Below are positions 34,206 to 53,918 of a stretch of 64,000 nt of DNA, piece after piece (within the stretch, counting starts at the first letter, position 1; each line of letters opens with the position of its first letter). Origin of the DNA: Adenophora triphylla var. japonica. Lineage: Eukaryota > Streptophyta > Magnoliopsida > Asterales > Campanulaceae. The stretch is taken from contig JAFEMH010000986.1 in assembly GCA_022495995.1 (NCBI GenBank), forward strand, positions 248,001 to 312,000. Reading direction: 5' to 3'. The notes below the pieces were generated by a model. The model was given only the letters and a program-made list of their open reading frames with translations, had not been told where the DNA came from and searched no databases. Position numbers and translations under genes: made by a program.

Positions 34206-34713
34206 TAAGATACATAATGTATCACGAAAGTTTTACTCTTATCCAAAAGGATCAGCAATAGGAGCATAAAACTCTCGCTATTTAGCAGATGTGTTGATTT
34301 TATGAGATTCTCACAGTTCTTACACCCCCCCCCCCATTGACAAAATGAGAAAAGGAATCATTTAAAATTAACACCATACCTGATTACATTAAAACCTTTC
34401 TGAACTCAAAAACTGTGAGGGCATCGCAAGTTGTCATCATCTTTTCTGGCAGTAAATAATTCTAAATGATTACTATGATCGACGTACAATCCAACCAGTC
34501 ATGAAGAGACAGTGATCGACGAAAATATTTAAGCAATAGAAAGGCATGCATACCTGATAGCGGCAGTTATTACTGATATTAAGGTAGCATCCGTCCTATC
34601 ATTTCTCCACACATAAGTACTGGGAAGAAGCAACCTAGAATCTGAAAAAAATAAAAAATCGACCAATGTTATTTTACCTTAATTGTATAACTGTAGATGT
34701 CTCTATATCAAAA
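34206..34713. other. Spacer of MIR169/dehydrin unit 1
   Basis: No gene. From about 34338 it is homologous to the spacer between dehydrin and MIR169 in the other units (compare 38041-38100 and 51635-51835 reversed), including the uninterrupted hAT target site near 34428. Contains a C run (34327-34338) and copy 2 of the 46-bp inverted repeat (34474-34519). Confidence 0.65.
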
Positions 34714-34806
34714 TTATATATATATATATATATATATATATATATATATATATATATATATATATATATATATATATATATATATATATATATATATATA
34801 TATATA
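34714..34806. repeat. (TA)n microsatellite
   Basis: About 93 bp of uninterrupted TA repeats. Confidence 0.95.
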
Positions 34807-34826
34807 TTTTTTTTTTTATATATATA

Positions 34827-35045
34827 CTCCTAGTTTGTAAGCTTTTGGTCTTAACTTTGACCAATAGTTTAAGGCCATAATAATGATCCTAATAAAAATC
34901 CAAAAAATGTTATTGTTAATATTATTAAGCGTGATACAATAACAAATTTTTAAATTTTTATTAGGATCATTATTATGGCCTTAAATTATTGGTCAAAGTT
35001 GGTCAAAGTTGACCAAAAGTTTACACTGGGCTGGGACGGAGGGAG
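34827..35045. mobile_element. Stowaway-type MITE
   Basis: Right end GGGACGGAGGGAG before TA; left end degenerate (CTCCTAGTTTGTAAGC) but the inverted pairing continues inward (AAGCTTTTGGTC against GACCAAAAGTTT). Forms a long hairpin. Confidence 0.75.
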
Positions 35046-35269
35046 TATATATTACGGTTCAGTAATTGGAGACCTACGAATATCCAGGCGAAGAAAAAGG
35101 TGCATCTTCTGTATTTGTTTAATTCATGAAGAAGACTTCATTGGAAAGAAGATATTCCAAACTTATGGGCATGCAAAATGAAAGGAACGCACAAGTAAGC
35201 AAAGTCATCCCTCATTGTAATCCAATCAACATAAAAGAAAGGCTAATTGTTACATTTTCAAAGAACTGA

Positions 35270-35640
35270 TGCATTATTTGATGAGCCAAAAGTCAGCTCA
35301 GTCGTGTAGTGGGAAAGAAAAATATGGAAAAAGTACTCAAAAATCTTTAAAGAACTTTTTCTCGCTGGAAGAAATTTCATTTCCATTATCAGAAACTGAG
35401 GACCATATATCCCTCTTCTGACCAGAATATATTCCTTCACGACATGTTCATGTATAGCTTCACAGCAATGAGAGAGAGAGAGGGAGAGAGAATGAGGCAA
35501 TTTGGTCACTGAAAAAAATGCTAATTTTATACTCAAATCTTACTTCCACCAATACCCTTAATGGCTATAAATAGGAAGTCTTAGAACCAAGAAATAGCAT
35601 CTCAACTGAGAAAGGAAATAAATGAAGTACAGATAGTATT
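35270..35640 (+). promoter_or_regulatory. Promoter module of MIR169 unit 1
   Basis: TATA box CTATAAATAG at 35565-35574, about 120 bp upstream of the miR169 sequence. Conserved upstream blocks: GAGCCAAAAGTCAGCTCAGT (35283), CTGACCAGAATATATTCCTT (about 35418), and a GA-rich tract (35469-35491). The same blocks recur in units 2, 3 and 4 and in two relics. Confidence 0.75.
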
Positions 35641-35654
35641 TTGAGATGAGAGGC

Positions 35655-35810
35655 CTTACATGAAGGGTAAGAGTTTTTGTTTGGTAGCCAAGGATGACTT
35701 GCCTGAAGCTCCCTATTCAATAGGCTCTTCCATGTGGAGATTAAGAAAAGCCCTTTGTTTTTGGTCAGGCAAGCAACTTGGCTAACCTCACATGCTCTTC
35801 TCTCTCATGC
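35655..35810 (+). ncRNA. MIR169: MIR169 precursor, copy 1
   Basis: miR169 guides repression of NF-YA transcription factor mRNAs and is drought-regulated in several plants. The 21-nt mature sequence at 35685-35705 begins TAGCCAAGG and ends ATGACTTGCCTG, identical to the miR169h-n type. The opposite arm at 35766-35784 is CAGGCAAGCAACTTGGCTA, complementary at both ends with a central internal loop, so a foldback with a loop of about 60 nt forms. Preceded by a conserved promoter with TATA box. Transcription is inferred. Confidence 0.93.
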
Positions 35811-51084: not shown

Positions 51085-51626
51085 CAGGGACGAAGCCCTA
51101 TACAGGCAAGGGGGGTCAATTGACCCTCCTGAACTTTTAAGCAATGATATTCCGCCCCCTTCCATTTAAAAAAATCCATATGTATGCAATTTTGACCCCC
51201 CTGAATTTTGGCAAAATTTCATCTCATATCTAAAAGTTTGAGAAAATGAAGGATTATATGATTAAATATTCCAAAAATTTGAAAGAGTTATGGTGTAAGG
51301 GTTATATTGTGATTTAAAATCAAAGTTGACAATATGATCCAATTTTTTTTTTTTTTTTAACAATTATATAGTGCATTTTTAGTACTTTATACTTCCATTT
51401 CTTAAAAAAAATCCTCATGCTTTCTTTTTTACTTTGTCCCAAAAAATAGTTCTGCTTCTAAATATAGTTATTATTGTATTGTTATTTTAACAAGGAATAA
51501 ACAAGTAAAGCATGTTTCATCAAAAATATCCATTTTTCGAATGATTTTTTTTTTTTGTAAGAAGGGAGTATTGTACTTTAGTTTTTACTTTGACCCCCCT
51601 CATTTCAATTCCTAGCTATGTCCCTG
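51085..51626. mobile_element. Complete hAT-like non-autonomous element, right arm
   Basis: 542 bp, ends CAGGGACGAAGCCC and GCTATGTCCCTG; perfect 8-bp target duplication ATGACAAC (51077-51084, 51627-51634). Truncated orthologue at 38098 in the left arm shows it was inserted before the inverted duplication. Unit 1 (near 34428) has the empty site. Confidence 0.9.
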
Positions 51627-52214
51627 ATGACAACATACGACGTCCTCACTGTCTTCGAGTTCAACAAGGTTATAATGTACATATGTACAGTGCTACATTG
51701 GTAAATCGATAGTGTTTTTGGGCTTCAAACTTTTGATTTTCAGGTTAGAGGCACCCCACTATATTTTGTGGAGTTATATGATATAATCGAAATGCATTAT
51801 TTTGAAGTGATTCCTTTTCTCATTTTGTTGCGTAATGGTTTCCTTTTGTTCAGCTACTTCAAACCAAGGGTGGACCTTTGAATTGAATTGTAACAATCAT
51901 CCTATATTCCTCTTAACGAACAAGTATCAATATTATCACTTACCGAGTAAAAGCCATCATTGTAGACATTTAAGTATCTCTTCATTCATTTAATGAAAAG
52001 ATACTTAGTTTGAAGTAGTTGCACAAAAGAAAATCATTAAGCAACAAGCATTAAGTGCTTGATATTATCAAACACAACCTTAGACCAAACAAACAACATG
52101 TAGAAACAAAACGGCCCAATTCTGCCTTGGGAATTATTGTACGATTTGCATGTATATATGCATAATACATTAGCTAATTATGGCGACCAGGAAGGTTCTC
52201 CTTGATCTTCTCCA

Positions 52215-52565
52215 TTATCCTTTCTTCTCATGCTCTCCTTCGTATGCCCCTGCAGTTGTAGTCGATGTTTTTTGCTCGTCCTTGTGACCTCCTGTTAACT
52301 TCTCCTTGATCTTTTCAGTGATTCCAACACCATGGTGTTGCTGCCCCTGAGTACCACTACCAGCATACCCGGTTCCCATGTCAGGGCCATGCCCAGTAGT
52401 GCCTCCAATAACAGCCAGAAAAGTTCCGGTAGTGTCAGCGCCGCCATAGCCAACCGCCGCACCGGTATCAGTGGGAAAACCGCCACCGGTTTCTTGGATG
52501 GGGTTGCCGAACTCGTCAGTCCGGCGGCCCTGAACCTGATCCCCTGTATGTCCCATCTCTTTCAT
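52215..52565 (-). CDS. Dehydrin III, single K-segment
   Basis: 116 codons from the ATG ending at 52565 (MKEMGHTGDQVQGRRTDEF); upstream in-frame codons are leader. Y-like segment RRTDEFGNP, Gly/Thr-rich middle, K-segment GITEKIKEKLTGGH, acidic tail ending EHEKKG and stop (52215-52217). Group-2 LEA protein, expected to be disordered and to bind membranes through the K-segment helix. The second K-segment lies just beyond the stop in a shifted frame. A retroelement (52621-53704) separates the coding region from its conserved TATA box and ACGTGTC, in what was the 5' UTR, so expression is doubtful. It is the most intact of the three copies. Confidence 0.8.
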   Translation of the reverse strand: MKEMGHTGDQVQGRRTDEFGNPIQETGGGFPTDTGAAVGYGGADTTGTFLAVIGGTTGHGPDMGTGYAGSGTQGQQHHGVGITEKIKEKLTGGHKDEQKTSTTTAGAYEGEHEKKG

Positions 52566-52620
52566 TTTGTTGATTAGCGACAACAACCTAAGTAATTAGT
52601 CTCGGATGGAAATATGTTTT

Positions 52621-53704
52621 TGTTGGGGTGCAAACCCAATTCCACATCGACAATTGAACAAAGTATTGTCAGGTTTATAAGAGCACACACCCACTTCATT
52701 AGTATGAGCCCTTTTGGGAAGTTCCCAAGAGCAAATCCGTGCGGGCTGAGCCCAAAGCGGACAATATCATACTAATGTGGAGTGGTGAGGATGATCGCGG
52801 TCCCTACAACTGGTATCAGAGCCATGGTTCGGATGTTCCGGCCTGGGTGGACCGTGTGTGTGCGATTATAGTGGTGGTGGGATTCCCTCTTGTGTGACTT
52901 TGCGGATCTTTATAAGAGCACACACCCACTTCATTAGTATGAGGCCTTTTGGGAAGTTCCCAAGAGCAAATCCGTGCGGGCTGAGCCCAAAGCGGACAAT
53001 ATCATACTAATGTGGAGTGGTGAGGATGATCGCGGTCCCTACAAATAATTGTTGGGGTGACTCACAATTGTTGACAAATCGGGTTTGGGAAAATGCTGCG
53101 GTTGTGCTGCTGTTCTTGGTGCTGATGTTCTTGATGGCGAGGCGGGCGCCCCACATGGAGTGAGGTGGACGCCTGGTTGGCTGGCCGAAGCTGGAGGATC
53201 TTGAAGGTGGTCTTGAGGCGGCCGCATGATCTGGAGGATGGCGGGCGCATCGCGGGCAGAGAGTTTGGCACGGCTTGACAACCACCCAGGCGGGCCGCTG
53301 GTCTTCAATGGGGCGGGCGCCTCACGACGGGAATATGATGGGCTGGGCCGTGTGTTAGGGTTCAGACGTGGTTTGCCTTTGTCATATAAATAATCCCTTT
53401 TGTCATTGTTCCGTGTGCAGCCTTGAGAGAGAGAGATTGATAGAAACAAGCTAGGTTATTCACTATTGTATTGTGAGAGATTGTGAGATTGTGTGAAAGG
53501 TTTTCACCTTGATTCTCCTTGTACTCTTCTTGATTATAGTGAATTGATTCTCCGTCGCCCGTGGAAGTAGCCAAGTTGGTGAACCACGTAAAATCTCGTG
53601 TGTTCATCTGTTTTTCAATTTTGTTTCGTTCTTGCTATTATTGTTATTTTGTGCTTGCATCTTTATCAATCTAGCAATTGTGTTTGAGACCCAAAATCCT
53701 AACA
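52621..53704 (+). mobile_element. Composite TRIM-like insertion in the dehydrin III leader
   Basis: First LTR TGTTGGGGTGCAAACC...GGTCCCTACA (52621-about 52809), then iMet primer site TGGTATCAGAGCC (about 52811), a short internal part and a partial second copy of the LTR from TTTATAAGAGCACACAC (about 52909-53043). A different 655-bp LTR-like block (53050-53704, TGTTGGGG...TCCTAACA) follows. It has a TATA box (about 53384) and an upstream GC-rich array (53141-53320). Flanks GTTTT / GCTTT resemble a target duplication, and removing the block restores the leader seen at 37000-37060. Confidence 0.72.
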
Positions 53705-53759
53705 GCTTTCTGTTAATGATGGAAGTTGTTGATGAATAAAGATGAAGAGAGGTGGTTGC

Positions 53760-53845
53760 TGTTTGGGTTTTATTTATAAATGTACATGGGAGTGATGTGA
53801 GAGAAATTAGTTGCACTGGATAACGAAGGAGCTGACACGTTTAAT
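53760..53845 (-). promoter_or_regulatory. Displaced promoter of dehydrin III
   Basis: Minus strand TATA box TTTATAAATAAA (53769-53780) and ACGTGTC (53834-53840), identical in order to dehydrin II. Confidence 0.7.
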
Positions 53846-53918
53846 TTTGGAGGGACATCTGTAAAATGATGTTGGGTCTTAGGATAAGATTGGTTCTTTA
53901 TGTCACTGCATACTGTGA

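Follow-up and report, generated by a model that had tools for sequence, protein, structure and literature searches.

How did several miR169 hairpins come to lie among copies and fragments of dehydrin genes in the genome of Adenophora triphylla var. japonica, and what ties the two together? The locus lies in a window of 64,000 nucleotides (positions 248001–312000 of contig JAFEMH010000986.1, here C986, of assembly GCA_022495995.1), and it was followed through the 2.48-Gb genome of 8,432 contigs. The reading that we favor, at a probability of about 0.62, is that the window holds one section of a large array in which predicted MIR169 genes are tied to dehydrin genes or their remnants. The array would have grown by tandem and inverted duplication, and one of its units is also found within a likely En/Spm-type transposon on four other contigs. 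Such an array would yield a high dose of one miR169, cutting the messages of NF-YA, as miR169 is known to do.

MIR169 hairpins and the extent of the array

Four miR169 21-mers are present in the window, with their first bases at 35685 (+), 39313 (+), 46310 (−), and 50023 (−). The last four bases are CCTG in three of them and CCTA at 39313; the letters at all four positions thus agree with a sequence-only reading of this DNA that preceded the analysis, in which three identical 21-mers and one with a different last base had been noticed. A search for the 21-mer with up to three mismatches returned four matches in the window and none in 100 shuffles. The mature sequence is therefore found at all four sites, and a stable hairpin with mature and star arms at three of them, on the evidence of Rfam and of folding. 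These three sites exceed the gathering score of the Rfam models MIR169_2 and MIR169_5, a score that was not reached for MIR169 at 46290–46310 in the scan of the window. Folding, which had been proposed as a check, places the three hairpins called by Rfam far from their shuffles (z of −3.3, −5.9, and −5.2, none of 200 shuffles being as good).

The whole hairpins belong to two types. The type E hairpin (35665–35804, +; z of −3.3) carries its mature sequence at 35685–35705 and follows a TATA box at 35566, within a promoter module at ~35531–35670 that is itself preceded by an upstream module at ~35191–35530. The two type D hairpins lie on opposite strands, one at 39293–39434 (+; mature sequence 39313–39333 with last base A, TATA box 39194), which is also placed by the tree described below, and the other at 49902–50043 (−; mature sequence 50003–50023). 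A TATA box is located 119–124 bp upstream of each of the four 21-mers, confirming the TATA-bearing promoter reported before each miR169, and 44 of the 47 units grouped genome-wide have one as well. In the window, CCAAT is seen at 35549–35553 and 39177–39181, before the TATA boxes of the type E and the plus-strand type D unit. A CCAAT box stands 15–17 bp before the TATA box in 23 of the 24 D, E, F, G, and transposon-borne copies; it could be an NF-Y site, making feedback by NF-Y conceivable.

The fourth site is a type C copy (45661–46310, −), in which the mature arm (46290–46310) and the star-side arm (~45663–45690) are separated by a hAT-like insertion of 521 bp in the loop (45707–46227). The 8-bp duplication TTAAAGGG flanks it at 45699–45706 and 46228–46235, and CAGGGG is found at both of its ends, read inward. 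The arms still pair in a fold of all 681 nt, although only across the insertion, which is absent from the seven other type C copies that were read. Four equal foldbacks are thus ruled out: of the four that had been proposed, three are whole and one is split. Two further relics, also proposed earlier, are both real, namely the promoter of a type B unit whose hairpin is lost (41563–41683, −) and a relic of an upstream module (43080–43273, −) with counterparts at C986:166404, C986:225508, and C650:179934. Six units are consequently counted in the window: three with whole hairpins, one with a split hairpin, and two with the hairpin lost. In the stretch beside the type B relic (40440–41562), a CACTA-like end motif noted by eye starts close to the inner edge of the inverted arm, and a minisatellite of TATACCC type follows it at the place expected for the type B hairpin.

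The two arms of an inverted duplication, a plus arm at 36823–40319 and a minus arm with insertions at 48835–53918, are 89.5–97% identical by segment. The plus arm has the order E, the dehydrin dhn1, D, inverted, and the minus arm runs through the B relic, the upstream-module relic, C, D, and dhn1 to a type E unit that lies outside the window (C986:321206). The minus arm thereby repeats the order found on the minus strand at C986 162–176 kb (A, B, relic, C, D, dhn1, E, with a second dehydrin, dhn2, at 181 kb). Tandem and inverted duplication of a linked locus, as read from the window, is supported by this recurrence.

Genome-wide, the 18-mer AGCCAAGGATGANTTGCC was found at 84 places with at most one mismatch and at 61 places exactly, a count in which haplotypes may appear twice; the reversed control gave one place. 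C986 itself has 15 exact sites, and homologous MIR169 arrays are located on C1392 and on C650/C3446/C1529/C5162, so that the array extends far beyond the limits first drawn for it. Sixteen of the 84 places lay outside the fetched stretches, which contained 76 sites, or 68 after removal of eight that were star arms of type C on the opposite strand; 47 of these 68 were grouped into types by similarity. The counterparts on C1392 of the window C and D copies are 98.4 and 99.4% alike, respectively, and C is whole there. A tree was built from 46 members, without the split window C copy. In it, A, B, and C are each divided into {C986, C1392} and {C650, C3446}, and D+E has F+G as its sister group (support 98/97); one row labeled H (C5162:155242) is placed beside G. 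Because A, B, and C are each split between both groups, the tree shows that these types, together with an ancestor of D/E/F/G, predate the parting of the two array groups.

Conservation of the hairpin arms

Variable columns were compared over 38 of the 47 grouped rows, representing seven types; the rows omitted were the split window C copy, a type E copy on C1392 without promoter, four transposon-borne rows, and three H rows. The star arm varies in 4 of 159 columns and the mature arm in 4 of 147, compared with 76 of 425 in the loop, 123 of 932 in the promoter, and 134 of 711 downstream. The differences of the star arm from the loop (p 1.2e-7) and from the downstream region (p 6.8e-9) are to be taken as a guide, the columns being pooled over related rows. 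The variability of the mature arm is biased by a search based on the mature sequence, whereas the star arm played no part in that search. Selection on the hairpin, independent of the decay of dehydrins, is supported because the star arm varies far less than the loop.

The array might instead be dying, with hairpins that seem conserved since a search by mature sequence finds the survivors. Two lost hairpins and a split one among the six window units would fit such a course, and all sites were indeed located via the mature 18-mer, but the low variability of the star arm relative to the loop and downstream columns makes this explanation very unlikely. Selection on the miRNA side, which the sequence-only reading had suggested, is thus retained on the strength of the star arm, although not by the route that it had taken through damaged dehydrins. 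Dehydrin damage was rejected as a sign of such selection, given one shared deletion and intact frames elsewhere, and the contrast of hairpins kept while dehydrins decay does not survive the finding that half of the six hairpins of the window are split or lost.

Dehydrin copies and their link to MIR169

Two copies of dhn1 lie in the window. The first (37087–37478, +) is broken by a stop at 37354–37356 and by a 1-bp deletion before the last K-segment, and the second (52174–52565, −) carries the same deletion. As this deletion is shared by all three dhn1 copies, it represents one inherited event. The window dehydrin copy tested for PF00257 scored 13.6, under the cut-off of 30.6, whereas dhn2, an intact frame outside the window (C986:181362–181764), scored 54.9 bits. 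The statement that all dehydrins are damaged is thus true within the window only. A second exception is found at a divergent MIR169 locus, H (C986:539432), where the ATG of an intact dehydrin lies 1,435 bp downstream; this two-exon gene has an open frame with Y, serine, and K parts, an intron interrupting the second of these, and its named relatives in the top five are 45–57% identical (among the best 120 of 750 matches). Three dehydrins, P0021, P0023, and P0063, come from contigs of ~560 bases that are assigned to Klebsiella and Ralstonia; they are probably plant contamination. On C1392 (344.2–345.0 kb; L072, L032), an open chimeric dehydrin frame stops ~225 bp before a type E hairpin that is without its TATA module. 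Elsewhere in the window, two K-segments (24737–24787 and 25693–25742, +) belong to a separate, broken two-exon dehydrin; K-segments resembling them are found at C986:186902–187067.

Of the 20 D/E/F/G units, 10 (D 3/5, E 2/4, F 4/5, G 1/6) have a K-segment remnant 491–894 bp downstream in the same orientation. Two of these remnants lie in the window and were identified by blastn with the K-segment of the H locus. One (36560–36619, +; E 3e-10) follows the mature sequence of the type E unit at 874 bp, and the other (49321–49379, −; E 1e-10) follows that of the minus-strand type D unit at 643 bp. At one E unit, the remnant has been displaced to 6.3 kb, beyond an insertion. MIR169 units trailed by such remnants are present on C986, C1392, C650, C3446, C1529, and C5162. 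Because remnants occur on several contigs and an intact pair is found at the divergent H locus, the dehydrin–MIR169 linkage, as judged from these comparisons, is older than this haplotype, in keeping with the linked locus first proposed. The proposed order, dehydrin and then MIR169, does hold between dhn1 and D; the reverse one is seen in addition at the H locus and with the remnants. In the ancestral unit, a MIR169 was probably followed by a dehydrin ~1.4 kb downstream on the same strand, as one intact pair and the K-segment remnants suggest; many dehydrins have since decayed while the hairpin arms, presumably in use for processing, stayed conserved.

Several observations weigh against the reading given at the outset. 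No remnant is in reach downstream at any of the 20 A/B/C units, nor at the other 10 of the 20 D/E/F/G units, three of which (G) were read for less than 0.77 kb downstream; the idea of a K-segment remnant behind every MIR169 unit was discarded on this recount. The H MIR169 has its sister on C744, where no dehydrin lies within ~4.5 kb, and the 2.9–3.3 kb read upstream of two D units on C1392 likewise contain none. Additionally, no hairpin was found by the test used at 9 of the 68 MIR169 sites. Since remnants occur at only part of D/E/F/G and at none of A/B/C, the pair is shown for one array lineage and one outlying locus.

Dehydrin and MIR169 might be chance neighbors without any common regulation, carried along together as an unstable segment full of repeats expands by unequal exchange. 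That the dehydrin copies are mostly remnants, that A/B/C units have none in reach, and that the C650 array has K-segment remnants only all speak for this; against it stand the divergent H locus, with its intact pair, and the intact or open frames at C986:181362–181764 and on C1392. We put this explanation at slightly below an even chance.

Transposon-borne D units and known systems

The D unit at C986:172186–171425 (~762 bp, with TATA box and hairpin) matches C1915 at 98.0% and C2446 at 97.5%, and C2997 retains 357 bp of it at 97.8%. On these three contigs, as well as on C3059, the D segment sits in a transposon-like gene, part of which is directly duplicated beside it: 95 bp at 96.8% in L054, and 81 bp (L058) and 65 bp (L055), both at 100% and each reaching the end of the fetched stretch; L057 is without the duplication side. 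In the next exon of L057, PF03004 (Ptta/En/Spm transposase) scores 35.4 bits against a cut-off of 28.7 (E 1.4e-8), and the class of the element follows from this one copy of four, the only one read far enough. In the tree, the transposon-borne copies nest in D (100/99), closest to the plus-strand D copy of the window (at only 88/75).

A D unit with its TATA box likely lies, as far as the sequence indicates, in an En/Spm-type transposon on four contigs, and a regulator with a presumed role in drought has probably been mobilized in this way. The duplication beside the D segment fits filler insertion at a staggered break. The D unit and its TATA box were likely inserted in the element gene as filler in the repair of such a break, which would account for the duplication of ~90 bp, and the element carrying it then probably transposed.

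All four copies could also go back to a single capture site, multiplied by segmental duplication or represented by its haplotypes. The insertion point is common to all of them, the left side of the element is common to three, and C3059 and C2446 are 99.6% alike over 1,386 bp, a further point against independent movement. However, none of the six pairs of the four contigs is similar 18.3–19.2 kb downstream (one of these stretches is itself repetitive, matching repeats on C650), the left side differs in L054, and L057 lacks the right part; we consider a single capture site unlikely. A more ambitious proposal, in which the dehydrin–MIR169 pair is a long-lived single stress module and the En/Spm-type transposon scatters promoter-bearing, working miRNA copies, appears to us quite unlikely.

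Matches to snoR71 above the Rfam cut-off are also found in the window at 1951–2055 (−), 16058–16162 (−), and 30373–30480 (+), the first two within a repeated segment bearing retroelement-like frames.

If the array reading with transposon uptake of a D unit is correct, one locus would show a conserved miRNA family expanding in two ways, by array duplication and by uptake in an element, and its near-identical miR169 genes would form a natural dosage series. The dehydrin link makes shared control of a stress-protein gene and a stress miRNA directly testable.

A literature search that included the available parts of PMC13317346, PMC10004981, PMC5708078, and PMC12030055, with most subscription journals outside it, found no report of a dehydrin–MIR169 array or of a CACTA-borne MIR169, and by title none of MIR169 capture by a transposon. 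In the accessible text of the Pack-CACTA review (PMC13317346), microRNA occurs twice, each time in the reference list.

MIR169 clusters exist in Arabidopsis and sorghum. Plant MIR169 families and clusters resemble the present array in mature sequence, hairpin, and clustered copies; here, in turn, the copies are interleaved with dehydrin genes or remnants. They are also more numerous (61 exact 18-mer places, in which haplotypes may count twice) than in the families of 14, 33, and 25 members given for Arabidopsis, poplar, and grape in the available part of PMC5708078. The dehydrins resemble the YSK2/YK2 type in the PF00257 match of dhn2 and in the Y, serine, and K parts of the H copy, whereas the array copies are without the serine tract and many consist only of a K-segment. 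As in the Pack-CACTA elements of the accessible text of PMC13317346, a CACTA-type element would carry host sequence, although its cargo here consists of a predicted miRNA gene together with the TATA box and the element is known from internal sequence. For a conserved miRNA gene taken up by a class II element there is a precedent in cotton, where a PIF/Harbinger transposon captured MIR482/2118d (Shen et al., as summarized in the available text of PMC12030055). The two cases are alike, on that summary, in the copying of a conserved plant miRNA gene to new places in a class II element, and differ in that the gene here is MIR169, the element is En/Spm-type by PF03004, and the flanking duplication fits break repair.

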